Source: Nocardioides anomalus (GTDB lineage Bacteria; Actinomycetota; Actinomycetes; Propionibacteriales; Nocardioidaceae). Taken from it: 64,000 bases of DNA. Shown here piece after piece: positions 1,316-24,571 of the stretch. The DNA is taken from positions 4,650,001 through 4,714,000 of the forward strand of contig NZ_CP049257.1 in assembly GCF_011046535.1 (NCBI RefSeq), written 5' to 3'. A program made the position numbers and the translations under genes. Positions within the stretch are counted from its first letter, which is position 1; every line of letters starts with the position of its first letter. The notes beneath the pieces are model-generated. The model did no database searches and was not told the origin of the DNA. It worked only from the letters and a program-made list of their open reading frames with translations.

Positions 1316-2164
1316 GTGGACCAGGTCGAGCTCGGAGCGTTCCTGCGCAGCCGCCGCGAGCGGCTCACGCCCGCGGCGCTCGGGCTGCCCGACCACGCCC
1401 GGCGGCGTACGCCGGGGCTGCGGCGCGAGGAGGTGGCGCAGCTGGCGCACATCTCCACGGAGTACTACACCCGCCTCGAGCAGGCCCGGGCGCCTCGGCC
1501 CTCGCGCGAGGTGCTGGCCGCGCTGGCCCGCGCCCTCCGGCTCGACGACGCCGAGCGCGACCACCTCCACCACCTGGCGGGCACGCCGCCCGGGCCACCG
1601 AGCGCGCTGCGCCGCGACGTGCGCGACAGCGTCCTGGACCTGCTCGAGCGGCTGCCGGGCGCGGCGGCGGTGGTGACGTCGGCGGCCTTCGACGTGCTGG
1701 CGTGGAACGACCTGGCCGCCGCGCTGATGGAGGACTTCAGCGCGGTGGCGCCGCGCGAGCGCAACCTGGCCCGGCGCGCGTTCCTGCCCGAGCCCGACCG
1801 CCCGGTGCTCTACGGCGTGGACGACCTGGCGGCGTTCCGCGCCCGCGTGGTGCGCCGGCTGCGCGCGGCCACCGGCCGCTACCCCGACGACCCCGGTCTC
1901 CGCGCGCTCGTGGCCGACCTGCGCGCGGGCAGCGCGGAGTTCGAGGCGGCGTGGGCGGCGCGCGAGGTGGCGGACGAGCCGACGCTGACCAAGACCTTCG
2001 CGCACCCGGCCGTCGGACCGGTCACCGTGCGCTGCGACGTGCTCGGCGTGGCCGACCGCGACCAGCAGCTGGTCGTCCACACCGCCGCCCCGGGCTCGCG
2101 CGACGAGGAGCTGCTCCGGCTGCTCGCGGTCGTCGGCACCCAGCGGCTGCTCACACCGGGCTGA
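1316..2164 (+). CDS. XRE-family regulator with MmyB-like ligand-binding domain
   Basis: 282 residues starting at GTG. Residues about 5-75 form an XRE helix-turn-helix, with [23 protein letters not shown] the typical actinobacterial form in which the recognition helix follows 'RREEVAxLAGVS'. The remainder matches the MmyB-like C-terminal domain ([13 protein letters not shown] and the [12 protein letters not shown] region), a PAS-like fold that in MmyB binds fatty-acid-like ligands. Such regulators usually repress a divergently transcribed SDR or oxidoreductase, and exactly that arrangement is seen here. The 3' end overlaps the 3' end of the convergent DUF1638 gene by 14 bp. Confidence 0.88.
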
Positions 2165-2771
2165 GCAGCTCCTCGAGCGCGACCTCGAGCCGGGCGTCGC
2201 CGGTCTCCACGACGGTGAGCGGCAGCCCCATCCGCGCCGCGGCCACCTCGGCCTGCGCGCGCAGCTCGGGCGTCGGGTCCTGGGCCAGCCACACGACCCG
2301 CGTGTAGTGGCGGAAGTAGTCCTCGGCCAGCTCCGGGTAGCGGTCCAGCCCCAGCTCGCGGGCCACCAGCCGGTCGAAGCCCCGGATGAGGAAGTCGGTG
2401 AACAGGTAGGTCCCGGGCTGCTCGTCCAGGAACGCCGCCAGCCGCGACTCCCCGGCGAACAGGTCGTAGCAGTGCAGCCCCGGCAGCCGCCGCAGCCCGA
2501 GGTCGGTGCACACCTCGTCGAGCGCGCCGTAGGTCCCGCAGTCGGCGTAGGCCACCGCCACCTCGTCGTACGTCGAGCGCAGCGCGACGGCGAGCTCGCG
2601 CACCTGGTCGGCGATCAGGTGGGGTGAGTTGTGCAGCAGCGGCGGCAGCGGGTGCACGGCCACCGACCAGCCGCGCCGCTCGACCACGTCGCTGACCGGC
2701 TGGGCGATCGCCCCGCAGGCGATGACGGCCGCGCGGCTTCGAGACGGGCGCAGAACGCCCTCCTCAGCCAC
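2151..2771 (-). CDS. DUF1638 family protein in the corrinoid operon
   Basis: About 206 residues from the GTG at 2771, which overlaps the stop of the upstream ASKHA gene by 8 bp. The start is uncertain, because a GAGGAGG sits just inside this reading frame and could serve a later non-standard start. The protein resembles DUF1638 ([12 protein letters not shown] at the N-terminus, [23 protein letters not shown] with conserved Cys and His). Its function is unknown. My recollection is that DUF1638 genes recur beside MttB-type and corrinoid methyltransferase genes; that is from memory and not checked here. As last gene of the iclR-corrinoid protein-methyltransferase-activator operon it may assist cofactor loading or repair. 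The Cys/His-rich N-terminal half could bind metal or thiol; this is inference. Confidence 0.75.
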
Positions 2772-4722
2772 CGTGGCTGAACGCGAGCTGCTCGACGAAC
2801 CGGTCGTTGAACTCGGGGCGGTCGGAGAGCTCGACATAGGTCACCTCCTCGAGGAGGGTCTGCGCGCCGGCGCGCTCGCGCACCGACAGCAGGGCCATCT
2901 TCGCGCCCTCGCCGGCCACGTTGCCCGCGGCGACGATGCGCAGCACCGGAAGCTGCGGGACCAGGCCGATGCGCACGGCGGAGGCGGCGGACAGGTAGCT
3001 GCCGAACGAGCCGGCCAGCAGGACCTGCTGGATGTCGCGGTGCTCCAGGCCGAGCTCCTCGAGCAGCAGCGTCCAGCCGGTGGAGATGGCGGCCTTGGCG
3101 AACTGCAGCTCACGCACGTCGCGCTGGGAGAGCACGACGCTCTCCTCGGGCGAGGCGTCCACGGTCGGGCGGTGCAGGACGAAGACCCGCTCCTGGCCGA
3201 TCATGGTCAGCCGGTCGGCCAGCGCGGGGGCGAGCTCCTTGGCCACGTCCTCGGGCACGAAGCGGCCCGAGGAGTCCAGCAACCCGACCTTGACAAGCTC
3301 GGCCACCGCGTCGACGAGCCCGGAGCCGCACAGGCCCTTGGGCTCCACGTCGCCGATGACGCCGAGCTCGACCGGCTGCTCGCCGCTGGCGTCGAGCTTG
3401 ATGACCTCGATGGCGCCGTCGGCCGCGCGCATGCCGCAGCGGATGGCGCCGCCCTCGAACGCCGGGCCGGCGGGCGCCGCGGTGGAGACGATCCGGTCGC
3501 CGTCGCTGAGCACGATCTCGCAGTTGGTGCCCACGTCGATGAACAGCCGGGTGCGCTTGTCGCGGTCCATGCCCGAGGCGAGCATGCCGGCCACGATGTC
3601 GCCGCCGACGTAGGCGCCGAGCGCGGGGAAGAACACCGCCCGGGCCCGCGGGTGCAGCCCGAGCTGGAGGTCCTCGGCCAGCACGGTGGGCGGCAGCGGC
3701 GTGGACATGATGAACGGCGCGACGCCGAGCGGCTCGGGGTCGATGCCGAGGACGAGCGCGGTCATGGTGGCGTTGCCGGCGATGCACGCCTCGTAGACGT
3801 GGGCCGGGTCCACCTCGCCCTCGGCGCAGACCTGCGCGGCGAGCTGGGCCAGCGTCTGGCACGCCGCGGTCTGCAGCCGCTCCAGCGCGAGAGGGTCGAG
3901 CATGGTGGCGCTGATCCGGCTGATCACGTCGCCACCGAAGGGCTGCTGCTTGTTGAGCATCGACGCGACCGCGACCGGCGTACCGGTGACCAGGTCGAGC
4001 AGCGTCGCCACCACGGTGGTCGTGCCGAGGTCGAAGGCGATCGCGTAGCGCTGCTCGGTGGTGTCGCCCGGCTCGACGTCGACGAGCTCCTCGTCGACGA
4101 TCACCGCGGTGACCTTGAAGTCGGCCTCGCGCAGCACCTTCGGGAGCCGGCGCAGCACGTGCAGGTCGGCGCGCGGCTCGAGGTCGGTGATCGCGGCCAG
4201 CAGCCGGTCGAGATCGGTGACCTGGTCCTCGAGCGTCGGCTCGGCCAGCTTGACGTACCGCTTCTGGACCGCGGGCCGCAGGATCACCTGGCGGCCGACG
4301 CCGACGGTCGCGGCCTTGGGGCGGGTGGTGAGCGGGGGCACCAGGACCTTGAGGTCGCTGGTCGCCTTGACCAGGCAGGCCAGGCGCCAACCCGCGTCGA
4401 GCTGGTCGGCGCTGAACGTCTTCGCGTCGTGCCGGGTGACCGGCTCGGTGCGGTCGAGCCGCACCTTGCACTTGTGGCAGGTGCCGTGCCCGCCGCAGGT
4501 GGAGTCGATCGCGATGCCGTTCCACGACGCGGAGTCGAAGACGGTGACGCCGGGTGGGACGCGCACCTTCTTCTCGGCCGTGCGGGCCGGGTCGGTGTCC
4601 TCGACCGTGAAGGCCAGCTCGACCCGGCCGGCGCCGTCGTGGGCCACCCGGTCCGTGCCGGGAGGTGTCACGAGCCCCTCCCGGCGCAGCTCCTCCGGGT
4701 CGATGTCGGGCGGTTGGGTCAC
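2764..4722 (-). CDS. [2Fe-2S] ASKHA-domain corrinoid-activating protein (RamA/RACo-like)
   Basis: 652 residues from a GTG start 7 bp after the stop of the upstream methyltransferase gene. The N-terminal [2Fe-2S] ferredoxin domain carries Cys76, Cys82, Cys85 and Cys116 ([10 protein letters not shown] then LACL), spaced as in plant-type ferredoxins. After a linker domain, an actin/Hsp70-like ATPase starts with the phosphate loop AFDLGTTTV (229-237) and continues with [11 protein letters not shown] and GLCGSGLVD. This order matches the reductive activators of corrinoid proteins (RACo of acetogens, and the DUF4445/ASKHA proteins). They use ATP to drive one-electron reduction of inactive Co(II) back to Co(I). 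In this operon the client is presumably the corrinoid protein at 5611. It is distinct from archaeal RamA, which has two C-terminal [4Fe-4S] sites. Confidence 0.9.
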
Positions 4723-4729
4723 GCCGGGC

Positions 4730-5610
4730 TCATGCGGTGGCAGCCGCCTTGGCGCGGTGGGCCGAGATCCAGGCCATGCCCCAGTCGTCGTGGTTCATGA
4801 ACACGTCGGCGGCCTTGACCGCCTCGACGATCTGCGGCGTGCGGGCGTCCATGATCGCGCAGGTGAGGCCCTGGGTCATCGCCATCGGCAGCCAGGCGGC
4901 GCCGAGGGTGTGCCGGTCGGGCATGCCGAAGGACGTGTTGCTCGCACCGCACGTCATGTTGACGCCGAACTCGTCACGGATGCGCCGCATGGTCTCCATG
5001 GTGACCAGCGCGGTCGAGGTGTCTGCGCCGATGGGCATGGCCAGCGGGTCGATGACGATGTCGGCCTTGGCGATGCCGTACTCCTCGGTGGCCACCCGGA
5101 TGATCTTCTCGGTCAGCACGAGGCGCTTGTCGGCCTCCATCGGGATCTCGTCCTCGTCGTTGGGCAGGGCGATGATCGCGGCGTCGTACTTCTTGACCAG
5201 CGGCAGGATCTGGGCCATCCGCTCGTCCTCGGCGGTGATCGAGTTGACCAGCGCGCGGCCCTGGTAGACCGACAGGCCGGCCTCGAGGGCCTCCACGACC
5301 GAGGAGTCGATGCAGATCGGCAGGTCGGTCAGGGTCTGCACCAGCTGGATGGCCTTGGCCAGCAGCTCGGGCTCGTCGGTGAGCGGGACGCCCATGTTGA
5401 CGTCGAGGACGTCGGCGCCGCCCTCGACCTGGGCCTTGACGTCGCGCTCGATGGCCGAGAGGTCGCCGGCGCGCAGCTGCTCCTGGAAGATCTTGCGGCC
5501 GGTCGGGTTGATCCGCTCGCCGATGAGGCAGAAGCGCTGGTCGTGGCCGATCACCACCTCCTTGCCCGGGGAGCGGAGGACGGTGTGGAGAGGCTCTCCC
5601 TCGTAGGCCA

Positions 5611-5611
<1 letters not shown>
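4730..5611 (-). CDS. Pterin-binding methyltransferase, methylcorrinoid:H4F type
   Basis: 293 residues, DHPS-like TIM barrel. The start is FCLIGERINPTGRK (the pterin-binding IGERINPTG of the MeTr/MetH-H4F family), followed by GADVLDVNMGVP, PICIDSS, ALVNSIT and NMTCGASNTSFG, all conserved in methyl-H4F:corrinoid methyltransferases such as AcsE and MtvA/MtgA. It has no dihydropteroate synthase-specific context. In a betaine system the MtgA-type enzyme moves the methyl group from the corrinoid protein to tetrahydrofolate. The start codon ATG overlaps the preceding stop in TGATG, so translation is coupled to the corrinoid protein. The gene sits between the corrinoid protein and its activator, which supports the assignment; the direction of methyl transfer is inferred from the neighbourhood. 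Confidence 0.9.
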
Positions 5612-6275
<664 letters not shown>

Positions 6276-6279
<4 letters not shown>

Positions 6280-7043
6280 GCGGCGCCCTCCTTGTTCATG
6301 GGTGTGGCTGTCCTGCCGTGGAGCAGCTGGTTGAGCTCCAGGGCGTGTCCTCGCAGCAGCCGGCCGAGCTCGCCGAAGCGACCCTCGAGCCGGGCAGTGG
6401 GTCCCGAGACGCCGAGGGCCGCGACCACCTGGTCGCGCTGGCCCCGGACGGGTACGGCGACACCGGAGAGCCCGACCTCGAGCTCGTCGACGGTGGTGGC
6501 CCACCCGCGCTTGCGGGTGCGGGCCAGGTCCTCGCGCAGGGCGTCGCCGACCAGGGTGGCGTCGGTGAGCCGCTCCTGCTCGCGGGGCACGGGGACGACG
6601 TCCCAGGCCAGGAAGACCTTGGCCAGGGAGTTGCAGTGGTCGGGCACGTCGACCTGGGTCCAGTCGCGGGTGCCGAGCAGGAACTGGGAGTCGACCTGGG
6701 CCACCTGCACGACGTGGTCGCCGCGCGCCATGCTCAGGTTGACGGTCTCCAGGGTCTCGGCGCCGATGGCCTCGAGCAGCGGCTGGGCCAGGCGGACCAG
6801 CTCCTCGCCGGGGTCGTGGCGCGCGGCGTACAGCCAGAAGAGGCCGCCGGCCACGTAGCTGCCGTCGTCGGTGCGCTCGAGCATCTCCGAGCGCTCCAGG
6901 GCCGCGAGCATCCGCGAGGTGGTCGACTTGGGGAGGTCGCAGGCCTCCTGGAGGTCGGCGAAGCTCAGCGGCTCGCCGGCCTGGATCACGGTGGAGACCA
7001 GGAGGGCAGCGCGGTCGAGGGCCTGGGTGCCGCTGGCGGCCAT
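6276..7043 (-). CDS. IclR-family regulator of the corrinoid betaine locus
   Basis: 255 residues: an N-terminal winged HTH (about 8-70; LSFADLQEACDLPKSTTSRML) and the C-terminal IclR effector domain (GWATTVDELEVGLSGVAVPV). The ATG at 7043 has a strong AGGAGG. It is the first gene of the minus-strand operon and is divergent from mttB, with a 139-bp gap holding a GTTCCA-N5-TGGAAC palindrome and a second partial copy. That arrangement is typical of an IclR regulator controlling both directions. The effector is likely betaine or a derivative, by context only. A second IclR regulator (14502) guards the choline/betaine transport operon. Confidence 0.9.
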
Positions 7044-7077
7044 CGCTCCTCCTCTGCCCGTCGGGTGCCCGCAGGTG

Positions 7078-7139
7078 TTGACCTCGCGGTGCAGTGTTCC
7101 ACATGATGGAACCCACGTTCCACATCATGAGGCTAGGAT
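7078..7139 (+). promoter_or_regulatory. Divergent promoter/operator region of mttB
   Basis: A TTGACC -35-like box at 7078-7083 pairs with CATGAT (7102-7107, 18-bp spacer) or leaves TAGGAT at 7134-7139 as a second -10. The palindrome GTTCCACATGATGGAAC (7096-7112) overlaps the first -10. A second direct copy, GTTCCACATCATGA, lies at 7117-7130, exactly 21 bp (two helical turns) downstream. This looks like a two-dimer operator for the divergent IclR regulator. Confidence 0.6.
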
Positions 7140-7182
7140 CCGAGCCGATCCGAGGTCAAGCGCCCGTCACAGGAGGACCCCC

Positions 7183-8622
7183 TTGTTCGTCAACAAGATG
7201 CCGCGCTACGAGATCCTCTCCGAGGACGCGATGGCGACCCTCGAGACGGGCTGGCGCCGGCTGATGACCGAGATCGGCGTCGAGTTCATGGACGACCGTG
7301 CGCTCGAGCTGTTCCGCCAGGCCGGGCAGAAGGTCGAGGACCACAAGGTCTTCCTCGACCCCGACTTCGTCCTCGAGCAGGTGGCCAAGGCGCCGAGCGA
7401 GTTCGACCTCCAGGCGCGCAACCCGGCCAACTCCGTGCACATCGGCGGCGACTCGATGGCCTTCGGCGCGGTCTACGGCCCGCCGTTCGTCCGCGAGGGC
7501 GACGTGCGCCGCGACGGCACCATGGAGGACTTCCGCAACTTCGCCAAGCTGGCCCAGAGCTTCTCGGTGCTCGACTCGGCCGGCGGCGTGGTCAACGAGC
7601 CGAACGACACCCCGCTCGACAGCCGCCACCTCGACATGGTCTACGCGCTGCAGACGCTGACCGACAAGCTCTACATGGGCAACGTGGTCTCCGGGACCAA
7701 CGCCGCCGACACCATCAAGATGACCGAGATCCTCTTCGGCTCGCGGGAGGCGATCGAGGAGACCCCGGCGATCATCTCGCTCATCAACTGCAACAGCCCG
7801 CTGCGCTGGGACGACCGGATGCTGGAGTCGCAGTTCGAGTACTCCGCGGCCGCCCAGCCGGTCGTGCTGACGCCGTTCATCCTCATGGGCGCGATGTCGC
7901 CGGTGACCATCCCGGCCGCGCTGGTCCAGCAGATCACCGAGGCGCTCTCGGGCGTCGCGCTGTCGCAGCTGATCCGCCCGGGCGCGCCGGTGGTCTTCGG
8001 CTCGTTCCTGTCCAACATCGACATGCAGTCCGGCTCGCCGACGTTCGGCACGCCGGAGAGCGGCATCGGGCTGCTCTGCACCGGCCAGATCGCGCGCCAC
8101 TTCAACCTGCCGTTCCGCACCGGCGGCGGGCTCACGTCCTCGCAGGTGCCGGACGCCCAGGCCGGCTACGAGGCGCTGATGACGATGATGCCGACGTTCC
8201 TGGCCGGCGCGAACTGGGTGATGCACTCCGCCGGCTGGCTCGAGGGCGGCCTGGTCGCGGGCTTCGAGAAGTTCGTCATCGACGCCCAGATCGTCGAGAT
8301 GCTCCAGGCCGAGTTCACCCCGCTCGAGATCGACGAGGACTCGATGGCCTTCGGCGCCCACGAGGAGGTCGGCCACGGCGGCCACTTCCTCGGCGCGATG
8401 CACACCATGGAGCGGTTCCGGACCTGCTTCTACCGCCCGTTCCTCAACTCCTCGGACAACTACGAGCGGTGGATGCGCAACGGCGCCAAGGACACCGCCA
8501 CGCGCGCCGGCGAGATCTACAAGAAGCGGCTGGAGGACTACGAGCAGCCGCCGCTCGACGAGGCCGTCCGCGCCGAGCTCGAGGACTACGTCAACCGCCG
8601 CCGCACCGAGCTGGGGGACTGA
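7183..8622 (+). CDS. MttB-superfamily methyltransferase without pyrrolysine, glycine betaine:corrinoid type
   Basis: 479 residues, a TIM-barrel trimethylamine-methyltransferase (MttB) family protein. I chose TTG at 7183 because AGGAGG at 7171-7176 lies 6 bp upstream; the internal ATG at 7198 is the alternative. The frame has no amber codon. True trimethylamine MttB enzymes read a UAG as pyrrolysine, whereas the non-Pyl branch includes MtgB, which demethylates glycine betaine to dimethylglycine. Family features visible are the N-terminal SEDAMATLETGWRRLMTEIGVEF, the GAVYGPPFV loop, and FRTGGGLTSSQVPDAQAGYEA near the C-terminal third. Neighbours (corrinoid protein, H4F methyltransferase, activator, betaine import, DMG dehydrogenase) point to betaine as substrate. 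Proline betaine or carnitine cannot be excluded from sequence alone. Confidence 0.9.
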   Translation: MFVNKMPRYEILSEDAMATLETGWRRLMTEIGVEFMDDRALELFRQAGQKVEDHKVFLDPDFVLEQVAKAPSEFDLQARNPANSVHIGGDSMAFGAVYGPPFVREGDVRRDGTMEDFRNFAKLAQSFSVLDSAGGVVNEPNDTPLDSRHLDMVYALQTLTDKLYMGNVVSGTNAADTIKMTEILFGSREAIEETPAIISLINCNSPLRWDDRMLESQFEYSAAAQPVVLTPFILMGAMSPVTIPAALVQQITEALSGVALSQLIRPGAPVVFGSFLSNIDMQSGSPTFGTPESGIGLLCTGQIARHFNLPFRTGGGLTSSQVPDAQAGYEALMTMMPTFLAGANWVMHSAGWLEGGLVAGFEKFVIDAQIVEMLQAEFTPLEIDEDSMAFGAHEEVGHGGHFLGAMHTMERFRTCFYRPFLNSSDNYERWMRNGAKDTATRAGEIYKKRLEDYEQPPLDEAVRAELEDYVNRRRTELGD

Positions 8623-8627
8623 GGGAC

Positions 8628-9503
8628 ATGACGATCGCGAGCACCGCCGAGACCGCCGGCGACTTCGTCCTCACCCTCAGCTGCCCGGACCGGCCGGGCA
8701 TCGTGCACGCGGTGAGCGGCTTCCTGCTCGAGCACGGCGGCAACATCATGGAGTCGCAGCAGTTCGACGACGTGCGCCAGAACCGCTTCTTCATGCGCAT
8801 CGACTTCGAGGTCGACGGGCCGGCCTCCGCCGACACGCTGCGCGAGGAGTTCGCCGCGGTGGCCGCGACGTTCGAGATGGACTACGAGCTGTGGTCCGCG
8901 GCCGCGCCGTACCGCACGCTGATCATGGTCTCCAAGCAGCTGCACTGCCTCAACGACCTGCTGTTCCGCCAGAGCACCGGCGCCCTCAACATCGACGTGC
9001 CGGCCGTGGTCTCCAACCACCCCGACGCCGAGCCGATGGTGAAGTCCTACGGCATCCCCTTCCACCACATCCCGGTCTCGCCGGACACCAAGCAGCAGGC
9101 CGAGGGCGAGCTGATGGAGCTGGTCGACGGCCTCGGCGTCCACCTGGTCGTGCTGGCGCGCTACATGCAGATCCTCTCCGACGGCCTGTGCCGCCAGCTC
9201 GGTGGCCGCGCCATCAACATCCACCACTCGTTCCTGCCGTCGTTCAAGGGCGCGAAGCCCTACCACGCGGCCTTCGACCGCGGCGTCAAGCTGGTCGGCG
9301 CCACCGCCCACTACGTCACCGCCGACCTCGACGAGGGCCCGATCATCGAGCAGGACGTCACCCGCGTCGAGCACACGCACACGCCCGAGCAGCTGGTCGC
9401 GGCCGGGCGGGACGTGGAGGCAGCGGTGCTGTCACGGGCGGTGTCGTGGCACACCCAGAGCCGGGTGCTCCTCAACGGCAACCGGACCGTCGTCTTCCGC
9501 TGA
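8628..9503 (+). CDS. purU: Formyltetrahydrofolate deformylase
   Basis: 291 residues. An N-terminal ACT domain (LTLSCPDRPGIVHAVSGFLLEHGGNI, about 13-90) is followed by the formyltransferase-type hydrolase domain with NIHHSFLPSF...GATAHYV.DLDEGPII, which carries the Asn-His-Asp catalytic set of PurU/PurN enzymes. It hydrolyses 10-formyl-H4F to formate and free H4F. The ATG at 8628 lies 5 bp after the mttB stop, with GAGGGA partly inside that stop, so the two are almost certainly co-transcribed. In a pathway that loads methyl groups onto H4F, PurU provides the exit: it recycles H4F and releases formate. The last 64 bp before the C-terminus are repeated in inverted orientation just downstream. 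Confidence 0.93.
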   Translation: MTIASTAETAGDFVLTLSCPDRPGIVHAVSGFLLEHGGNIMESQQFDDVRQNRFFMRIDFEVDGPASADTLREEFAAVAATFEMDYELWSAAAPYRTLIMVSKQLHCLNDLLFRQSTGALNIDVPAVVSNHPDAEPMVKSYGIPFHHIPVSPDTKQQAEGELMELVDGLGVHLVVLARYMQILSDGLCRQLGGRAINIHHSFLPSFKGAKPYHAAFDRGVKLVGATAHYVTADLDEGPIIEQDVTRVEHTHTPEQLVAAGRDVEAAVLSRAVSWHTQSRVLLNGNRTVVFR

Positions 9504-14465: not shown

Positions 14466-14501
14466 ACGTCGGCGGGCGAGCGCTGTTGTAGCGTGCCCGC
14501 C

Positions 14502-15287
14502 ATGCCGGCGACCAGCGACACCGAGGCGGCGCCGGCGTCCGTGCAGAGCGTCGACCGGGCGCTGACGATCCTCGAGCTGCTGGCCCGTGACGGCGAGGCG
14601 GGGGTGACCGAGATCGCGGCCGATCTCGGGGTGCACAAGTCGACGGCGTTCCGGCTGCTGGCCACGCTCGAGGCGCACCGGCTGGTGGAGCAGGACGGCG
14701 AGCGGGGGCGCTACCGGCTGGGGGTCGGCAACCTGCGGCTGGCGGGGGCGACGACGGCGCGGCTGGACCTGGTGACCGAGGCGCGGCCGGTGTGCCGGCA
14801 GCTGGCGGCGGACACGGGCGAGACGGTCAACATCACGGTGCGCAGCGAGACCAGCGCGCTCTACCTCGACCAGGTGGCGGGGGGCAGCGCGGTGCAGAGC
14901 CACAACTGGGTGGGCCAGCACATCCCGCTGCACGCGACCAGCAACGGCAAGGTGCTGCTGAGCGAGCTGAGCGACGCCGAGCTCAAGGAGGCGGTGCGCG
15001 CGCTGCCGCGGGTCACCGACGCCACGGTGACGAGCCGGGCCAAGCTCAAGGCGGACCTCCAGGAGGTCCGCGAGCTCGGGTACGCCGTCGTGGTGGACGA
15101 GCTCGAGGTCGGGCTGACGGCGGCGGCGGCGCCGATCCGCAGCGCGCACGGCGACGTGATCGCCTCGATCAGCGTCAGCGGGCCGACGTACCGCCTCGAC
15201 GACGCCAAGGTCGAGCGGGTCGTGCCGCAGCTGGTCGCGGCGGCGGAGGAGATCTCGCACCGGCTGGGCTGGGGCGAGCGGACATGA
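14502..15287 (+). CDS. IclR-family regulator of the choline/betaine operon
   Basis: 261 residues: winged HTH (about 12-75; VTEIAADLGVHKSTAFRLLATLE) and IclR effector domain (LGYAVVVDELEVGLTAAAAPI). A TAGCGT -10 box (14489-14494) ends 7 bp before the ATG, so a leaderless transcript is likely; a GTG at 14493 is the alternative start. The gene lies directly upstream of, and on the same strand as, the betaine-aldehyde dehydrogenase operon. Tandem GTTGCG-N5-CGCAAC palindromes lie in the 149-bp gap between them, and a third copy precedes the dimethylglycine gene at 25757. It is the best candidate for binding these sites. Confidence 0.9.
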   Translation: MPATSDTEAAPASVQSVDRALTILELLARDGEAGVTEIAADLGVHKSTAFRLLATLEAHRLVEQDGERGRYRLGVGNLRLAGATTARLDLVTEARPVCRQLAADTGETVNITVRSETSALYLDQVAGGSAVQSHNWVGQHIPLHATSNGKVLLSELSDAELKEAVRALPRVTDATVTSRAKLKADLQEVRELGYAVVVDELEVGLTAAAAPIRSAHGDVIASISVSGPTYRLDDAKVERVVPQLVAAAEEISHRLGWGERT

Positions 15288-15436: not shown

Positions 15437-16906
15437 GTGCCTGACCTCTACGTCGACGGAGCGTGGGTCAGCGCGCTCGCAGGCGGCCGCCGGACCATCG
15501 CGTGCCCGGCGGACGCGACGGTCGTGGCCGAGGTCGACGAGGCCGGCCCGGAGGACACCGAGCGCGCCATCGGGGCGGCGCACCGCGCGTTCCACGACGG
15601 ACCGTGGCCGCAGACCAGCGCGCGCGAGCGCGGCGACCTGCTGCTGCGCGTGGCCGACCTGCTCCAGCGCGACACCGAGGCGGTGGCCGCGGCCGAGTCC
15701 GGCGACACCGGCAAGCGCCTGGTCGAGAGCCGGTACGACGTGGCCGACGTGGTCAGCGTCTTCCGCCACTACGGCCGGATCGCGGCCGAGGACTCCGGCC
15801 GGGTGGTCGACACCGGCAACCCCGACGTGCTCAGCCGGATCGTGCACGAGCCGATCGGCGTCTGCGGGCTCATCGCGCCGTGGAACTACCCGCTGCTGCA
15901 GGCCAGCTGGAAGGTCGCCCCGTGCCTGGCCGCCGGCAACACCTTCGTGCTCAAGCCGAGCGAGCTGACGCCCAGCACGAGCATCCACCTGATGCGGATC
16001 CTCGAGGAGGCCGGCCTGCCCGCGGGCGTCGGCAACCTCGTCCTCGGCGCCGGCCCGCAGGCGGCCGCGCTGCTGAGCAGCGACCCGCGCGTGGATCTGG
16101 TCAGCTTCACCGGCGGCCTGGTCACCGGCCGGGTGGTGATGGCCGAGGCCGCGAAGACGGTCAAGAAGGTCGCCCTCGAGCTCGGCGGCAAGAACCCCAA
16201 CATCGTCTTCGCCGACGCCGACCTCGAGGTGGCGCTGGACTACGCGCTCACCGCGGTCTTCCTGCACTCCGGCCAGGTCTGTTCGGCCGGCGCCCGCCTG
16301 CTGGTCGAGGAGAGCGTGCACGACCGGTTCGTCGACGCGCTGGTCGACCGCGCCAAGGCCATCCGCCTCGGCGGACCTCATGACGACAAGGCCGAGACCG
16401 GCCCGCTCATCAGCGCCCAGCACCGCGACAAGGTGGCGGCGTACGTCGCCCGCGGGCTCGAGGAGGGCGCCACGCTGCGCTGCGGTGGCCAGGCGCCCGA
16501 CGAAGAGGCCCTGCAGAGCGGCTACTACTTCCTGCCCACCATCCTCGACGGCGTCCGCAGCGAGATGAGCGTGGCCCAGGACGAGTCCTTCGGCCCGGTG
16601 CTCACCGTCGAGACGTTCAGCGGCGAGGACGAGGCGGTCGCGATCGCCAACGACAGCATCTACGGCCTGGCCGGCGCGGTGTGGACCCAGGACGCCGGCA
16701 AGGCCCAGCGCGTCGCGGGCCGGCTGCGCATGGGCACGGTCTGGATCAACGACTACCACCCCTACGTGCCGCAGGCCGAGTGGGGCGGCTACAAGCAGTC
16801 CGGCGTGGGCCGCGAGCTCGGCCGGGCCGGGCTGGAGGAGTACCGCGAGACCAAGCACGTCTGGCACAACATCCGGCCGGCCGAGCAGCGCTGGTTCCAG
16901 GGATAG
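15437..16906 (+). CDS. betB: Betaine-aldehyde dehydrogenase
   Basis: 489 residues, NAD-dependent aldehyde dehydrogenase. It carries [29 protein letters not shown] (cofactor binding), [16 protein letters not shown] (general-base Glu) and [14 protein letters not shown] (catalytic Cys); it ends with [14 protein letters not shown]. The FTGG form, where most ALDHs have FTGS, is a small deviation. Together with the GMC gene 13 bp downstream it completes oxidation of choline to glycine betaine. GTG at 15437 is preceded by GAGAGGGA. It is first of a six-gene run (aldehyde dehydrogenase, GMC, ABC ATPase, permease, binding protein, BCCT). Confidence 0.9.
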
Positions 16907-16919
16907 GGGACGCACCGAC

Positions 16920-18626
16920 ATGGCGAGGGACCGGTACGACGTCGTGATCGTCGGGGGCGGCTCCGCCGGCTGCGCCCTGGCCAACCGCCTCTCGGCCGAC
17001 CCGGGCACCAGCGTGCTGGTCCTCGAGGCCGGGCACTCCGACTGGCGCATCGACCCGTTCATCCACATGCCGGCCGCGCTGCCGTTCCCGATCGGCAGCC
17101 GGCTCTACGACTGGCGCTACGAGACCGACCCCGAGCCGCACATGAACGGCCGCAAGGTCTTCCACGCCCGCGGCAAGGTGCTCGGCGGCTCCTCGAGCAT
17201 CAACGGGATGATCTTCCAGCGCGGCAACCCGATGGACTACGAGCGCTGGGCGGCCGAGCCGGGGATGAAGGAGTGGGACTACGCCCACTGCCTGCCCTAC
17301 TTCAAGCGCATGGAGACCTGCCTGGCCGGCGCCGACGACTGGCGAGGCGGCGACGGCCCGCTGGTCCTCGAGCGCGGCCCGGCACAGAACCCGCTCTTCC
17401 ACGCCTTCTTCGACGCCGTCCAGGAGGCGGGCTACCACCTCACCGACGACGTCAACGGCTACCGCCAGGAGGGGTTCGCGCGCTTCGACCGCAACCTGCA
17501 CCGAGGCCGGAGGCTCTCGGCCGCCCGCGCGTACCTCCACCCGGTCCGGCACCGCAAGAACCTCGACGTCGAGACCCTGGCCATGGCCACGAAGGTCCGC
17601 TTCCAGGGCAAGCGCGCGGTCGGCGTCGACTACGTCCGCGGCGGCCGGCTCAAGCGCAGCGTGCAGGCCGGCGAGGTCATCCTCAGCGGCGGCGCGATCA
17701 ACAGCCCGCAGCTGCTCCAGCTCTCCGGCGTCGGCGACGAGACCCTGCTGCGCAACCTCGGCATCGACGTCGTCCACCACTCGCCCGGCGTGGGCGAGAA
17801 CCTCCAGGACCACCTCGAGGTCTACGTCCAGTACGCGTCCAAGCAGCCCGTCTCGATCTCCGAGGGCCTGAAGTGGAGCAAGCGGCCCGGCATCGCGTGG
17901 AACTGGCTGGTCCACCGCAAGGGCCTCGGCGCCACCAACCACTTCGAGGGCGGCGGGTTCGCGCGCTCCAACGACGACGTGCGCTGGCCCAACCTGATGT
18001 TCCACTTCCTCCCGGTCGCCATCCGCTACGACGGCACCGCGCCGACCGAGGGCCACGGCTACCAGGTGCACATCGGCCCGATGTACGCCGACACCCGCGG
18101 CTGGGTGCGCATCAAGAGCACCGACCCGAAGGTGCACCCGTCGATGCAGTTCAACTACCTGTCCACCGAGACCGACCGGCGCGAGTGGGTCGAGGCGATC
18201 CGCGTGGCCCGTGACATCCTCAACCAGCCCGCCTTCGCGCCGTACAACGACGGCGAGCTCTCGCCCGGCCTGCAGGTCGACACCGACGAGCAGATCCTTG
18301 ACTGGGTCCGCGCCGACGCCGAGACCGCACTGCACCCGTCCTGCACCGCCGCGATGGGCGTGGAGGAGATGTCGGTGGTCGACCCGGCCACGATGCGCGT
18401 GCACGGCGTGGAGGGGCTGCGCGTCGTCGACGCCTCGGTCTTCCCGTTCGTGACCAACGGCAACATCTACGCCCCGACGATGATGGTCGCCGAGAAGGCC
18501 GCCGACCTGATCGCCGGCAACACGCCGCTGCCGCCCGCCGACGTGCCGTGGTACCGCCACGGCGACGGCAGCCCCCTCTACCCTCCCGGAGACCCGCGCA
18601 ACGAGCAGACCGAGGAGTCCTCATGA
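16920..18626 (+). CDS. betA: GMC-family choline dehydrogenase
   Basis: 568 residues. The N-terminal FAD motif is [20 protein letters not shown]. The GMC signatures are [27 protein letters not shown] and [16 protein letters not shown], and the C-terminal block HPSCTAAMG...[28 protein letters not shown] carries the active-site His-Asn pair. This matches BetA-type choline dehydrogenases in length and motifs; other GMC alcohol dehydrogenases look similar. The placement between betaine-aldehyde dehydrogenase and betaine transport genes makes choline the likely substrate. Its stop overlaps the ABC ATPase start by 4 bp (ATGA). Confidence 0.88.
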
Positions 18627-19699
18627 CCGCGACCGAGACCGAGGCGAGCAGCACCACGACGACCGGAGGGGACGCGGCGCTGTCGGTGCGCCACCTCTGG
18701 AAGATCTTCGGCAAGGGCGCCGAGTCGATCATCGGCACGCCCGACGCGGACCTCTCGCGCGCGGAGCTCAAGGAGAAGACCGGCTGCGTGGTCGGCGTCA
18801 AGGACGTCGGCTTCGACGTCGCCCCCGGCGAGGTCTTCGTCGTGATGGGGCTCTCGGGCTCCGGCAAGTCCACGCTGATCCGCACCCTCACCCGGCTCAT
18901 CGAGCCGACGGCCGGCGAGGTCGTCATCGACGGCCACGACATCGTCAAGGCCAGCGAGAGCGAGCTGCGCGACCTGCGCCGCAAGCACACCTCAATGGTC
19001 TTCCAGCACTTCGGGCTGCTCCCGCACCGCCAGGTCCTCGACAACGTCGCCTACGGCCTCGAGGTGCGCGGCGTCGGCAAGAAGGAGCGCCGGGCGCGCG
19101 CCGGGGAGATCGTCGACCTGGTGGGCCTCACCGGCTACGAGCGCTCTTACCCGGACCAGCTCTCCGGCGGCATGCAGCAGCGCGTGGGGCTGGCCCGGGC
19201 GCTGGCCAACGACCCGTCGCTGCTGCTCTTCGACGAGCCGTTCTCCGCGCTCGACCCGCTCATCCGCCGCGACATGCAGAACGAGGTCATCCGGCTGCAC
19301 CACGAGCTCGGCAAGACCATGGTCTTCATCACCCACGACCTGCAGGAGGCGCTCAAGCTCGGCGACCGCATCCTGATCCTGCGCGACGGCGAGATCGTCC
19401 AGGTCGGTACGCCGCCCGAGGTGGTCGGGGCGCCGGCCGACGACTACGTCCGCGACTTCGTCTCCGACGTGCCCCGCTCGCACGTGCTGACCCTGAAGTG
19501 GGTGATGCGCGACCCGCGGCCCGACGACGACCTCACCGGCTCCACGATGCCCTCGGACACCATCGTGCGGAAGGCGGCCCAGGCGGTGCTGGCCTCCGAC
19601 AAGCCGGTGCGCGTCGTCGAGGACGGCCAGGTCGTGGGCGTCGTCGACGACGAGGAGATCCTGCGCGTGGTCGTCGCCGAAGAGGAAGCGAAGGCGTGA
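18623..19699 (+). CDS. proV: Glycine betaine/proline ABC transporter ATPase
   Basis: 358 residues. A ProV/OpuAA-type N-terminal extension contains LWKIFGKGA. Then come Walker [10 protein letters not shown], the Q-loop [12 protein letters not shown] (typical of osmoprotectant importers), signature [15 protein letters not shown], Walker [21 protein letters not shown] and the switch His in [13 protein letters not shown]. The C-terminal stretch after 270 is a short CBS-like tail ([20 protein letters not shown]). Energises betaine/choline import. It overlaps the preceding and following genes by 4 bp each. Confidence 0.93.
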
Positions 19700-21747
19700 C
19701 CGCCACCGCGGCCCCGCCCCGCGTCGAGCCCGGCGCGCAGCCGCCGGTCGCGCCCCGCGAGGCCACCCCCCGCGCGGTCTGGGCCGCGCTGGTCGTGGTG
19801 GCCTGGGTCGTGGTGTGGGCGGTGACCAAGGGCACCGACACGCTGGCCCGGCCGATCCGTGAGCGCACCGACCTGATGGACCGGCTGTCCGGCTTCCGCG
19901 ACGACGTCATCGCCAGCCGCGACACCAACCCGATCATCAAGTTCACCTACGCGCTCGGCGACAAGTTCGTCAGCGCGGTCGACTGGCTCCAGCGGATGGT
20001 CTCCGAGCCGAACTTCCCGCGCCCGGTCCCCGAGCTCGGCTGGCTGGGCGTCACCGCGGTCGCGGTGTGGATCGCGCTGGCCGTGGCCGGGTGGCGGATC
20101 GCCGTCCTGGTGGCGGCGTCCTTCGTCTCCTTCGGCCTGCTCGGCTTCTGGTCCGACGCCATGGACCTGCTCATCGTCACCTTCGTCTCGGTCGCCATCG
20201 TCGTGGTCATCGGCATGCCGCTGGCCGTCTGGATCGCGACGAGCAGGCGCGCCGACCGGGTGGTCACGGTCTTCCTCGACCTCGCGCAGACGATGCCGAC
20301 CTTCGTCTACCTGCTGCCGATCGTGCTGTTCTTCGGCATCGGCGCCTCGGGCGCGGTGGTCTGCACCCTCATCTACGCCCTGCCGCCGCTGATCCGCATC
20401 GCCGGGCACGGCATCCGCTCGGTCTCGCCGACCACCATCGAGGCCACCGACTCCGCGGGCCAGACGTTCCTCCAGCGCCTGTTCAAGGTGCAGCTGCCGA
20501 TGGCCCGCTCGACCATCGTGGTCGGGCTCAACCAGAGCATCATGGCCGCGCTCTCGATGGCCACGCTCGCCTCCTACGTCGACGGCCCGGGGCTCGGCAA
20601 GCCCGTGCTCAACGCGCTGACCCGGGTCGACATCGGCGGCGCGTTCGTGCCCGGCATGCTCATCGTGGTGATGGCGATCATGCTCGACCGCACCGTCACC
20701 GCGGCCAGCCAGCGGCGCGACGTGGCCGCCCACGGCGAGGGCTGGAGCACCCGGACCCGCCGCATCGTCCTCGCCGTGACCGGCGTCGCGGTCCTGGTCT
20801 GCATCTACGAGTCCCGCCAGGCCCTGTGGGCCGCCCAGTTCCCGGAGAACCAGTCGGGCCGCTGGGTGGCCGACCGCGTCAACAGCCTCACCGGGTGGGT
20901 CGTGGACACCATCGGCGGGTTCACCGAGGGCGTGAAGAACCTCGTCTCCAGTGTGCTCATCGACCCGCTGCAGAGCCTGCTGGCCGAGTCGCCCTGGTGG
21001 CTCGCGGCCGTGGCGATCCTGGCCCTGGCGTGGGTCTTCGGCCGCAGCCGGGCCATCGTGCCGACCGTCGTCTGCCTGGTCGGCATCCGCCTGCTCGACT
21101 TCTGGCACGACGCGATGGTCACGCTCACCATGACGCTGGTCGGCACCGCGCTGGTCATGGTCCTCGCGGTCGTCTTCGGCGTCTGGATGGCGCGCAGTCG
21201 CCGCGTCGACCTGCTCATCCGCCCGCTGCTGGACGCCGGGCAGACCATCCCGCCGTTCGTCTACCTCATCCCGGTCCTCGCGCTGTTCGGGCCGACCCGC
21301 TTCACCGCCATCGTGGCCGGCATCGTCTACGCCGCACCCGCTGCGATCAAGCTGCTGGCCGACGGGGTCAAGAACGTGTCGCCGACCACCGTCGAGGCCT
21401 CGCGCTCCACCGGTGCCACGACGTGGCAGGAGATCACCAAGGTCCAGCTGCCGATGGCCCGCGGCGCGATCGTGCTCGCGGCCAACCAGGGGCTGCTCTA
21501 CGTCCTGGCCATGGTCGTCATCGGCGGCCTGGTCGGCGCCGGCGCGCTCGGGTACGACGTCGTGCTCGGCTTCTCCCGCTCCGAGGAGTGGGGCCGCGGC
21601 GCCGCGGCCGGCGTGACCATCGTGCTGCTCGGCGTGATGATCGACCGGATCACGCGGGCCGCCGCCGACTACCAGCCACAGACGGCCGCCACCCGGCCCG
21701 GCCGGCTGGCCGCCCGCAACCGCGCCGGCGCCGCCACCGTCGGCTGA
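19696..21747 (+). CDS. proW: Fused tandem ProW-type permease of the betaine ABC transporter
   Basis: 683 residues, about twice the length of ordinary ProW (about 300-350). It contains two binding-protein-dependent permease domains in one chain. Each has the EAA-type loop: [36 protein letters not shown] in the first half and [36 protein letters not shown] in the second. The two halves are clearly repeats, so one polypeptide would replace the usual permease homodimer. The start is the GTG at 19696, overlapping proV. It forms the channel for ProV and the lipoprotein ProX. Confidence 0.92.
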
Positions 21748-21826
21748 CACCGACGCCCTCCCCGCACTCCCGCCCCAGCACGGATCCGCACCACGCGCAG
21801 CAGCGCAAACCAACCGGAGGTCAGGA

Positions 21827-22813
21827 ATGAGAATGAACCGCAAACGGGGCGCCGGCCTCCTCGGCGCGGCCGCCGTGGCGGCCATGGTGCTCGCCGGGTG
21901 TGGCGACAGCTCCATCGACAAGGAGACCAAGGCCAACGAGGACCAGCAGGCCTCCTCGGGCGACTGCGGCGAGGTCAACATGGCCGTCAACCCGTGGGTC
22001 GGCTACGAGGCCGACGCCTACGTCTACGGCGCGGTGGCCGAGCAGGAGTTCGGCTGCAAGATGAACTACAAGGAGCTCAAGGAGGACGTCTCCTGGCAGG
22101 GCTTCGGCACCGGAGAGGTCGACACGGTCATCGAGGACTGGGGCCACCCGGACCTGGAGAAGAAGTTCTTCGCCGACCAGGGCGACGGCAGTGCCTCCAA
22201 CGTCGGCTCGCTCGGCGCCGAGGGGATCATCGGCTGGTACGTCCCGCCGTGGCTCGCCAAGGAGCACCCGGACATCCTCGACTACAACAACCTGAACAAG
22301 TACGCCAAGGACTTCGCCACTTCCGAGACCGGCAGCAAGGGCCAGTTCCTCGGGGCGGACCCGTCCTACGTGCAGTTCGACGAGGCGATCATCAGCAACC
22401 TCGGGCTGGACTTCCAGGTGGTCTTCTCCGGCTCCGAGGCCGCCAGCATCACGGCGTTCCAGAAGGCCGAGAAGGACCACACCTTCCTCATCGGCTACTT
22501 CTACGAGCCGCAGTGGCTCTTCGCCGACATCGACCTGCAGCGCGTCGCCCTGCCGCCGTACACCGACGGCTGCCAGGACGACCCGGCCAAGGTCGCCTGC
22601 GACTACCCGACCACCGACCTGCAGAAGGTCGCGGCCACGAAGTGGCTCGACGAGGGCGGCCCGGCGCAGGACCTGTTCAAGAAGTTCAGCTGGACCAACG
22701 ACGACCAGAACGTCGTGGCGAAGTACATCTCCGAGGACAAGATGTCGCCGGAGGACGCCGCCGCCAAGTGGGTCGCCGACAACCAGGACAAGGTGGACGC
22801 CTGGCTCAGCTGA
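21827..22813 (+). CDS. proX: Glycine betaine-binding lipoprotein
   Basis: 328 residues. A signal peptide ends in a lipobox LAGC (Cys about 25), so the protein is membrane-anchored outside the cell. The rest is an OpuAC/ProX-type betaine-binding domain (MAVNPWVGYEADAYVYGAVAEQEFGC, VDTVIEDWGHPDLE, IIGWYVPPWL), with the Trp/Tyr residues that build the aromatic cage for quaternary ammonium ligands in this family. GGAGGT at 21816-21821 is 5 bp before the ATG. It follows proW by 79 bp. A long intercistronic hairpin separates it from the BCCT gene. Confidence 0.92.
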   Translation: MRMNRKRGAGLLGAAAVAAMVLAGCGDSSIDKETKANEDQQASSGDCGEVNMAVNPWVGYEADAYVYGAVAEQEFGCKMNYKELKEDVSWQGFGTGEVDTVIEDWGHPDLEKKFFADQGDGSASNVGSLGAEGIIGWYVPPWLAKEHPDILDYNNLNKYAKDFATSETGSKGQFLGADPSYVQFDEAIISNLGLDFQVVFSGSEAASITAFQKAEKDHTFLIGYFYEPQWLFADIDLQRVALPPYTDGCQDDPAKVACDYPTTDLQKVAATKWLDEGGPAQDLFKKFSWTNDDQNVVAKYISEDKMSPEDAAAKWVADNQDKVDAWLS

Positions 22814-22820
22814 GGCACCC

Positions 22821-22857
22821 GGCCGGGCCCGACGAGCACCGCTCGACGGGCCCGGCC
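22821..22857 (+). terminator. Hairpin between proX and BCCT gene (attenuator or mRNA-stability element)
   Basis: An 11-bp GC stem (22821-22831 with 22847-22857), an A/A mismatch, then a further 5-bp stem CGAGC/GCTCG closing on ACC. No T-run follows. It may lower read-through into the BCCT gene or protect the 3' end of the proX message; high-level binding-protein mRNA is often stabilised in this way. Confidence 0.55.
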
Positions 22858-22880
22858 ACCCATCTCGGAGGGAACAGCAC

Positions 22881-24491
22881 ATGACCGACACGCAGGACCG
22901 GCCCGTCGCGGCCGGACAGCACCCCGAGCGGCACCTCCCGGTCGACTGGACCGTCTTCGGGGTCGCCGCCGCCCTGGCCCTGGCGGTCGTCGCCGCCGGC
23001 GCCGTCTGGCCCGAGGACTTCGCCGCGAAGTCCACCTCCGCACTGAACTGGGTGACCGGCCACTTCGGCTGGCTGTTCGTCCTGACCAGCGCCGGGTTCG
23101 TGGTCTTCTCGGCCTACCTGGCGCTCACCCGCTACGGCAACATCAAGCTCGGCCCGGACGACTCCGAGCCGGAGTTCTCGACGTTCTCCTGGGTCTCGAT
23201 GATGTTCGCGACCGGCATGGGCATCGGGCTGATGTTCTGGGGCGTCGCGGAGCCGCTGACGCACTTCAACACCCCGCCCCTCGGCGAGGGCGAGGGCGGC
23301 ACGCCCGAGGCCGCGGAGAGCGCGATGCAGTACGCCTTCTTCCACTGGGGCTTCCACCCGTGGGCGATGTACGCCGTGATCGGGCTCGCGATCGGCTACT
23401 TCGCCTACCGCCGCGGGACCGGCAACCTGATCTCGGCGACCTTCCGCCCGCTCCTGGGCGACCGGCACGGACCGGCCAAGGCCATCGACGTGATCGCGAT
23501 CTTCGCGACCCTGTTCGGCTCGGCCACCTCGCTGGGCCTCGGGGCGCTGCAGATCACCGGCGGCATCGACGACGTCTTCGACCGCGGCGGAGGCAGCAAG
23601 ACGCTGGCCGTGGCGGTGATCGCCGTGCTGACGGCCTGCTTCGTCCTCTCGGCCGTCTCCGGCGTGGACCGGGGCATCAAGTTCTTGTCCAACGCCAACG
23701 CGGTGGCCGCGGCGCTGCTGGTCTTCTTCCTGTTCGTGGTCGGTCCGACGGTGTTCATCATGGGGACCTTCACCACCACGGTCGGCGACTACCTCACCCA
23801 CCTGCCGGCGATGTCGTTCAACACCGGCGTCTACGACTCCGAGGCCAGCTCCTGGCTCGGCAGCTGGACGATCTTCTACTGGGCCTGGTGGATCAGCTGG
23901 ACGCCGTTCGTCGGGATGTTCATCGCGCGCATCTCCAAGGGCCGCACCATCCGGCAGTTCGTCGTCTACGTCATCGTGGTGCCGAGCCTGGTGTCCTTCG
24001 TGTGGTTCGCGATCCTGGGCGGCTCGGCCATCGACCTGCAGCTCAACCAGGGCTGGGACCCGCCCACGACCTCGAGCGGCGGCATCGCGCTGGAGTCGTC
24101 GTTCTTCGACCTGCTGCGCGAGTTCCCGTGGGGTGGGCTGACCGTGGCCCTGGCGGTGTTCCTGGTGGCGATCTTCTTCGTCACCGGCGCGGACGCGGCC
24201 TCGATCGTCATGGGCCAGCTGAGCCAGAACGGCACCGAGGAGCCGCACCGCTGGCTCATCGTGTTCTGGGGTGTGGCCACCGGCGCGGTGGCCGCGGTGC
24301 TGCTGTGGGCCGGTGGTCTCGCGGCCCTGCAGACCCTGGTCATCCTGGTCGCGGCGCCGTTCATGCTCGTGCTGATCGGCATGTGCGTCTCGCTGCTCAA
24401 GGCGCTGCGCGAGGAGACCTTCGAGTCGACGCTGCCCTCGCGGGTGCGGCGCGCGGTCGAGCACGCCCAGCGCTACCCCGACGGCCCGTAG
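22881..24491 (+). CDS. BCCT-family betaine/choline/carnitine transporter
   Basis: 536 residues, about 12 TM helices. It shows the BCCT glycine-rich TM3 segment MMFATGMGIGLMFWGVAEP and the Trp-rich signature YWAWWISWTPFVGMFIARISKGRTIRQF (TM8 region). The GMGIG form is that of Na+-coupled betaine carriers such as BetP/OpuD, whereas carnitine exchangers differ. It has only a short C-terminal tail, unlike the long osmosensing tail of BetP, which suggests nutritional uptake. The ATG follows CGGAGGG. An 18-bp-stem terminator follows the stop. Confidence 0.92.
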   Translation: MTDTQDRPVAAGQHPERHLPVDWTVFGVAAALALAVVAAGAVWPEDFAAKSTSALNWVTGHFGWLFVLTSAGFVVFSAYLALTRYGNIKLGPDDSEPEFSTFSWVSMMFATGMGIGLMFWGVAEPLTHFNTPPLGEGEGGTPEAAESAMQYAFFHWGFHPWAMYAVIGLAIGYFAYRRGTGNLISATFRPLLGDRHGPAKAIDVIAIFATLFGSATSLGLGALQITGGIDDVFDRGGGSKTLAVAVIAVLTACFVLSAVSGVDRGIKFLSNANAVAAALLVFFLFVVGPTVFIMGTFTTTVGDYLTHLPAMSFNTGVYDSEASSWLGSWTIFYWAWWISWTPFVGMFIARISKGRTIRQFVVYVIVVPSLVSFVWFAILGGSAIDLQLNQGWDPPTTSSGGIALESSFFDLLREFPWGGLTVALAVFLVAIFFVTGADAASIVMGQLSQNGTEEPHRWLIVFWGVATGAVAAVLLWAGGLAALQTLVILVAAPFMLVLIGMCVSLLKALREETFESTLPSRVRRAVEHAQRYPDGP

Positions 24492-24497: not shown

Positions 24498-24537
24498 CCG
24501 GGCAGTGCTGGTGAGACTCCTCACCAGTGCTGCCCGG
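24498..24537 (+). terminator. Strong terminator hairpin after BCCT gene
   Basis: Arms 24498-24515 and 24520-24537 pair over 18 bp (two internal G-U wobbles in RNA) around an ACTC loop. It starts 6 bp after the BCCT stop and ends the betaine transport operon. The following OYE gene starts 35 bp downstream, so it probably has its own promoter. Confidence 0.75.
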
Positions 24538-24571
24538 AACACGCCTGGGGCCCTGGAGCGCTGTACCGGTC

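Follow-up and report, generated by a model that had tools for sequence, protein, structure and literature searches.

A probable corrinoid-dependent module for glycine betaine demethylation in Nocardioides anomalus, an actinobacterium of a presumably aerobic genus

Introduction

Can a soil-type actinobacterium of an aerobic genus take a methyl group from the common osmolyte glycine betaine with a corrinoid protein, whose Co(I) form is sensitive to O2? The question is raised by a gene cluster in the 64,000-nucleotide stretch of DNA analyzed here (the window, positions 4650001-4714000 of the one-contig 5.12 Mb genome of Nocardioides anomalus, a host which we take from its genus to live aerobically). 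The MttB homologue encoded at 7183-8622 and the genes on both sides of it probably make up a module that demethylates glycine betaine with the help of a corrinoid (B12). An initial annotation had proposed a full MtgB-type pathway of this kind working beside choline and dimethylglycine oxidation, on the understanding that such demethylation is described mainly from anaerobes. That understanding is out of date: MtgBCD betaine demethylation has been described in the aerobic Ruegeria pomeroyi and mapped in Sinorhizobium meliloti, RamA-like and DUF1638 proteins being its partners (PMC12478193, PNAS 2025; this and the other papers given by PMC number are cited from excerpts). Since that 2025 paper shows MtgBCD in aerobic marine bacteria, an aerobic module is less of a surprise in itself.

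Results and discussion

Gene content and proposed pathway

The core genes are arranged as follows (window coordinates, strand; bit scores are given against the cut-off of the respective model):

1-462, +: 3' part of a MetF-like gene for a 286-amino-acid (aa) protein (whole gene L002:17602-18462; PF02219, 41 bits vs 24)
2151-2837, -: DUF1638 protein, proposed corrinoid-reactivation partner (PF07796, 81.8 bits vs 27)
2764-4722, -: RACo/RamA-like [2Fe-2S]-ASKHA protein that would activate the corrinoid protein by reduction (Pfam)
4730-5611, -: MtgA/MtgD-like methyl-corrinoid:tetrahydrofolate methyltransferase (NF005719, 310.7 bits vs 259; PF00809)
5611-6279, -: MtgC-like corrinoid protein, 222 aa (PF02310 and PF02607 over cut-off)
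6276-7043, -: IclR-family regulator, first of the leftward set (PF01614 and PF09339 over cut-off)
7097-7111, no strand assigned: putative IclR operator TTCCA-N5-TGGAA (motif match in the divergent promoter)
7183-8622, +: MttB-superfamily methyltransferase, 479 aa, proposed glycine betaine:corrinoid methyltransferase (PF06253)
8628-9503, +: PurU, formyltetrahydrofolate deformylase, one-carbon exit to formate (TIGR00655, 351 bits vs 286)

Leftward from a 139-base divergent region, iclR, mtgC, mtgA and the genes of the RACo-like and DUF1638 proteins follow one another closely, overlapping or separated by a few bases; mtgC shares 4 bases with iclR and 1 base with mtgA. On the other side, mttB starts with TTG, preceded by AGGAGG, and purU lies five bases 3' of it. 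The parts listed in the initial annotation were confirmed. The MttB homologue matches PF06253 with 617 bits (cut-off 25; profile positions 24-500 of 500) in a frame without in-frame UAG, the corrinoid protein carries the DxHxxG motif as DVHDIG besides its two B12-binding Pfam domains, the pterin methyltransferase exceeds its NCBIfam cut-off, and the [2Fe-2S] ASKHA activator has three RACo domains and Fer2 over cut-off (PF14574, PF17651, PF17650 and PF00111) with the motif CX5CX2C...C. The divergent arrangement of IclR against MttB also stands. Beyond that list come the DUF1638 gene, within the same interval, and the MetF-like gene just upstream.

The MetF-like gene begins 399 bases before the first base of the window, is divergent and is one of two PF02219 genes in the genome, the other being at C1:1377647. 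Its product has 7xg9 as best match in the Protein Data Bank (PDB), with 102.5 bits, which we take to be the Sphingobium SYK-6 enzyme. The SYK-6 subfamily of methylenetetrahydrofolate reductases prefers the oxidation of methyl-tetrahydrofolate (PMC13001107). The MetF-like protein itself has no PF12225 domain, no search of the remaining genome for a separate PF12225 partner having been made. Between metF and the DUF1638 gene lie a short-chain dehydrogenase/reductase gene (466-1230, -) and an XRE-like regulator gene (within 908-2164, +, read by eye).

The start of the DUF1638 protein is uncertain, because a database entry has 206 aa; starting from the ATG at 2837 it would have 228 aa and overlap RACo by 74 bases, and the start MSSSPT is common to several alignment rows. 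Residues C11, H39, C70, H92 and C93 (numbered in 2154-2747) are invariant in a 43-row alignment, and a profile search of the PDB gave no credible relative (best E 0.096). DUF1638 also occurs in the anaerobe Methanosarcina acetivorans and is therefore not specific to aerobes. Genetic evidence from P. inhibens places a RamA-like protein and DUF1638 in the service of a split methionine synthase, and no specific proposal for DUF1638 is offered in the excerpts of that paper (PMC5764234). Some proteins encoded within corrinoid clusters of proteobacteria, close to DUF1638 and to MetF or a RACo-like sequence, are annotated as 'virulence factor' (L112:10592-12874, L111:15582-15917, L110:17925-18227); the label looks misleading there.

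As proposed, the module would work like MtgBCD. Glycine betaine would be imported, or formed from choline by the dehydrogenases encoded downstream; the MttB homologue would then convert it to dimethylglycine by transferring one N-methyl group to the Co(I) of the MtgC-like protein, and the MtgA-like protein would pass the methyl group from Co(III) to tetrahydrofolate. The resulting methyl-tetrahydrofolate would be oxidized to methylene-tetrahydrofolate by the MetF-like protein, and carbon could exit as formate through formyl-tetrahydrofolate and PurU. Whenever Co(I) is oxidized to Co(II), RACo would re-reduce it with ATP, with DUF1638 probably helping, while dimethylglycine would enter the flavoprotein set with its electron transfer flavoprotein (ETF). 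It is very improbable that the cluster runs in reverse, or that it contributes little to aerobic growth and just recovers methyl groups when O2 is low. The established sensitivity of Co(I) to O2 speaks for such a role, but RACo and DUF1638 are encoded beside the core, the dimethylglycine flavoprotein is followed by ETF genes downstream, and comparable proteins increase on betaine in aerobic R. pomeroyi (PMC12478193).

Conservation of the unit and its divergent promoter

Relatives of the locus were the best 80 of 456 found by a scan with MttB, all 80 with actinobacterial names; the closest named one among those listed is Nocardioides agariphilus, with an MttB 93% identical. A search of 5.8 billion proteins, limited to 8000 candidates, listed close relatives only and thus gave no distant reference. 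For the synteny counts, genes were recognized by identity thresholds in those relatives whose sequence extends 8 kb or more beyond MttB, 60 on the upstream side and 66 on the downstream side, where the flanks reach 10 kb at most. MtgC, MtgA, RACo and DUF1638 lie on the strand opposite to MttB in 60 of 60 relatives, IclR is present in 59 and MetF, on the + strand, in 57 (exceptions L062, L075 and L082). Since the upstream set is kept in all 60, the association of these genes is not due to chance. Downstream, 62 of the 66 have a gene for betaine-aldehyde, choline or dimethylglycine dehydrogenase; counted separately, betaine-aldehyde and choline dehydrogenase each occur in 49, and PurU in 46 (12 on the +, 34 on the - strand). 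A phylogenetic profile across the order (147 genomes) shows MttB, DUF1638 and a close dimethylglycine enzyme (73-100% identity) in the same 14, and four further genomes have 38-39% homologues of the last. Because of shared descent, these 14 genomes represent fewer than 14 independent events.

The motif TTCCA-N5-TGGAA is present as an exact match in the divergent region of the window and of 44 out of 75 relatives whose IclR-MttB region could be extracted. Another 23 of the remaining 31 have it with at most 2 mismatches, as compared to 3.5% of base-shuffled copies of those 31, so that neither an exact nor a near match occurs in 8 of the 76 regions. Throughout the 1.42 Mb of the 75 relative loci there are 45 exact matches in total; therefore, at least 44 of the 45 sit in the IclR-MttB promoter. 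Neither the rest of the window nor the 18 kb preceding it contains another exact match, and metF and the downstream pathway genes are therefore without such an exact site. IclR would control the divergent promoter through this motif, presumably by binding it in response to an inducer. In R. pomeroyi, counterparts of the module's parts are induced by betaine (PMC12478193).

Neighboring genes for choline, betaine and dimethylglycine

Further downstream, the window encodes:

14493-15287, +: second IclR regulator (downstream in 59 of the 66 relatives)
15437-16906, +: betaine-aldehyde dehydrogenase (TIGR01804, 603 bits, under its cut-off of 668.6)
16920-18626, +: choline dehydrogenase (BetA TIGR01810, 831.8 bits vs 732)
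18620-24491, +: ProV/ProW/ProX-type betaine/choline ABC transporter and BCCT transporter
25718-28261, +: dimethylglycine oxidase/dehydrogenase-type flavoprotein with a folate-binding GcvT domain (Pfam DAO, FAO_M and GCV_T over cut-off)
28263-30016, +: ETF beta and alpha subunits, the latter with an uncertain start (PF01012 and PF00766 over cut-off)

Among the transporter genes, TIGR01186 (368 bits vs 327) and TIGR00842 (520 vs 408) exceed their cut-offs, and the permease (343 vs 363) and ProX (46 vs 379) stay under theirs. The dimethylglycine flavoprotein has the N,N-dimethylglycine oxidase 1pj5 as best PDB match (500 bits), and ETF is its probable electron acceptor. Between the BCCT transporter and the dimethylglycine gene lies an Old-yellow-enzyme family oxidoreductase (24527-25642), a 49% homologue of which is found near the Azoarcus betaine cluster described below. 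CbiC, the single corrin-ring synthesis gene looked for, was found in the genome.

Substrate of the MttB homologue

The protein is the only PF06253 member found in the whole genome, and it is not of the pyrrolysine type: Leu stands at the pyrrolysine column, as in 74 of the 80 relatives (Met in the other 6). Four residues predicted by docking to contact betaine in the Desulfitobacterium hafniense MtgB (Y94, N199, R309 and H345; PMC6855144) are all kept here and in 80 of 80 relatives. The D. hafniense enzyme (PDB 2qne, 9yce) belongs to the same superfamily, likewise lacks pyrrolysine and is 39.6% identical, although it comes from an anaerobe and falls into a separate clade. In comparison, the pyrrolysine-containing Methanosarcina barkeri MttB (7xcl), also of this superfamily, has 25.6% identity and none of the four contacts. 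Other families of the phylum contributed 29 further actinobacterial MttB-type proteins, of which 26 retain all four contacts and 19 have the complete nine-column signature YNRLHWEGG. Three proteins of the material compared (L140-L142) carry Ala at column 94 and join alphaproteobacterial paralogues without an assigned substrate. Together with plasmid loci L099, L100, L102 and L107 they make up a set of paralogues that have Ala, Ser or Asn in place of Tyr94 and are gapped at the pyrrolysine column, possibly acting on other substrates; no match to the Nocardioides MtgC was seen in the stretches compared (just 4.5 kb for L140-L142).

In trees of MttB proteins (a sampled set that did not include MtpB, MtcB, MtyB, MthB, A. 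woodii MtgB, SPO2108 and SPO2134), the Nocardioides-type proteins form a single clade with support 100/100. The phylogenetic placement on which the annotation's MtgB assignment was to be judged thus gave a divided answer: the protein nests in no clade of a known different substrate, but it does not join MtgB either. Uniting it with the S. meliloti, Azoarcus and Paracoccus proteins was rejected by the approximately unbiased (AU) test (p 0.000236), and a wider union was borderline and not rejected (p 0.053). Since a grouping with a supported MtgB is absent, we do not yet place the protein in MtgB proper.

Several observations weigh against glycine betaine as the substrate or against the module as its main route. 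The MttB homologue groups neither with the D. hafniense nor with the S. meliloti MtgB, and the sister group of its clade, nearest to it in the sampled set, consists of paralogues without an assigned substrate (97/92 and 98/94; 81 in a wider quick tree). The aromatic F353 of the D. hafniense enzyme is replaced by Gly, as also in the S. meliloti, Azoarcus and Paracoccus proteins. The MtgC-like protein stays below the NCBIfam MtgC cut-off (197 vs 370); the idea that it is some other protein was dropped, as the S. meliloti MtgC is likewise below (212). Four of the 66 downstream flanks (L021, L029, L061 and L079) hold none of the three dehydrogenases, and just 14 contain the close dimethylglycine enzyme within their reach of at most 10 kb. 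The genome also encodes a homocysteine methyltransferase at C1:795333, 41% identical to S. meliloti bmt.

In favor of the module, the best GbcB match in this genome reached just 164 bits against an NCBIfam cut-off of 500, and across the 147 genomes of the order no GbcB exceeded the cut-off, one other genome reaching 1e-90. GbcAB as the betaine enzyme was rejected, no search with a model of GbcA itself having been made; the two best GbcB matches look like ketosteroid and phenylacetate oxygenase reductases.

An improbable alternative is that the module acts on choline or on a carboxylated quaternary amine other than glycine betaine (proline betaine, carnitine or gamma-butyrobetaine), and that betaine is used otherwise. 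The four kept contacts cannot tell glycine betaine from other carboxylated betaines, the protein nests with no characterized enzyme of the sampled set, and close MttB paralogues do differ in substrate, MtcB and MtyB being 53% identical (PMC8604678). However, the flanking genes, judged by homology, produce glycine betaine and consume dimethylglycine, no second MttB was found in the genome, and the protein keeps company with the close dimethylglycine enzyme in the 14 genomes mentioned above.

Still less probable is that the BHMT-like protein at C1:795333 demethylates betaine and that the corrinoid module serves methionine synthesis, like the split synthase of roseobacters. The similarity of this BHMT/MtgE-like protein to bmt and the double role of MtgC and MtgD in R. 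pomeroyi (PMC12478193) would fit, but it scores under the cut-off (265 vs 338), in the PDB it is closest to 1q7m and methionine synthases, with BHMT behind, and its gene is nearly 4 Mb distant in coordinates. Moreover, the genome has a full-length MetH with the activation domain PF02965, so that methionine synthesis does not need the corrinoid module. By the excerpts of PMC12478193, MetH is absent from 108 of 156 marine genomes, as the usual state and not a strict rule; N. anomalus differs from most MtgBCD genomes of that paper in retaining it, and the absence of MetH that usually goes with a dual-function MtgBCDE was not found here. The module is real and conserved, and gene content, synteny, phylogenetic profile and pocket residues together make a glycine betaine demethylation pathway its most likely reading; the full pathway beside choline and dimethylglycine oxidation is supported in these respects, and membership in the MtgB clade is not.

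A separate branch and a second actinobacterial core

The core proteins appear to stand on a separate branch of their own. In the trees of MttB, MtgC, MtgA and RACo alike, the Nocardioides-type rows are split off by a 100/100 branch, and a second actinobacterial type lies together with the proteobacteria on the other side. The MttB tree has an outside root, the other three have none, and the MtgC bootstrap had not settled. A single clade of all Actinomycetota was not rejected for MtgC (p 0.54) and MtgA (p 0.37), is present in the best RACo tree (94/91, unstarred) and was weakly rejected for MttB (p 0.029).

A survey of the phylum found PF06253 in 51 of 396 genomes, N. anomalus being one of them. 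Twelve further PF06253 stretches were read: nine have an Azoarcus-like core, two (L152, L153) the Nocardioides-type core, and L154 has MttB genes without a core. In the nine, MtgC is 72-80% identical to the Azoarcus and 45-50% to the Nocardioides protein, and MetF is 37-48% identical to the Nocardioides one in eight (exception L151). A dimethylglycine enzyme 55-62% identical to that of Nocardioides occurs in four and a choline dehydrogenase 71-72% identical in two others, so that six of nine have either; L155 has just a 37% homologue of the dimethylglycine enzyme, L150 and L151 have neither dehydrogenase, and DUF1638 was not seen in the L155 stretch. L152 combines the Nocardioides-type core with an Azoarcus-like MetF. 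An exchange of MttB on an otherwise conserved actinobacterial module is contradicted by the four trees and by the Azoarcus-like identity of the second core. Tentatively, the Actinomycetota may possess two corrinoid cores for the betaine pathway, one of them Azoarcus/Sinorhizobium-like, each accompanied by a similar short MetF and a similar dimethylglycine or choline dehydrogenase; the Nocardioides type would then be a lineage of its own, next to the Desulfitobacterium and Proteobacteria-type cores, that reached glycine betaine independently, with DUF1638 and its five conserved Cys/His residues as an obligate corrinoid-handling partner.

Comparison with known systems

The mtg loci of R. pomeroyi and S. 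meliloti (locus L110, strain Ak57) resemble the Nocardioides one in their MttB, MtgC, MtgA/D, RACo-like activator, DUF1638 and MetF-type genes, and in belonging to aerobes. The S. meliloti locus also includes a formyl-transferase gene, and that organism, too, has MetH (PMC12478193). MtgC is 45-49% identical to the S. meliloti, Paracoccus and Azoarcus proteins, and the MtgA-like protein 48% to the S. meliloti and 52% to the Azoarcus counterpart. As differences, the Nocardioides core proteins branch separately from those of S. meliloti, MetH is retained, MetF is without a PF12225 domain, and the set is built as an IclR divergon with choline and dimethylglycine genes in the same region. Another parallel is the roughly 50 kb cluster on the betaproteobacterial plasmid pAZKH of Azoarcus sp. 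KH32C (L098, L111), which joins choline, betaine and dimethylglycine-type genes to a corrinoid core and is annotated with betA, betB, MttB, FolD, PurU, a corrinoid protein, DUF1638 and MetF, and with genes for a pterin methyltransferase, an ASKHA protein, a flavin adenine dinucleotide (FAD) oxidoreductase, ETF, ETF-quinone oxidoreductase and a betaine transporter. Its core proteins are 33-52% identical to the Nocardioides ones, and its MetF goes with a separate PF12225 protein. A plasmid of Halomicrococcus gelatinilyticus (L105:2216-9425) encodes a haloarchaeal MttB homologue with the four betaine contacts, near a dimethylglycine-type enzyme 54% identical to the Nocardioides one, ETF genes and a Mur-ligase-like/pterin-binding fusion; this stretch has no match to the Nocardioides MtgC.

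Significance

Such pathways were already known from anaerobes and marine proteobacteria, and 5% of ocean mtgC reads have been assigned to Actinomycetota (PMC12478193). No description of the module from Nocardioides or other actinobacteria was found in the literature searched, from which most subscription papers were out of reach. For an order in which GbcB stays below cut-off throughout the genomes surveyed, the analysis points to the genes by which glycine betaine is likely used. Overall, it would add a group with members in culture to the aerobes that demethylate with a corrinoid, type strains of Nocardioides and Phycicoccus being among the relatives.

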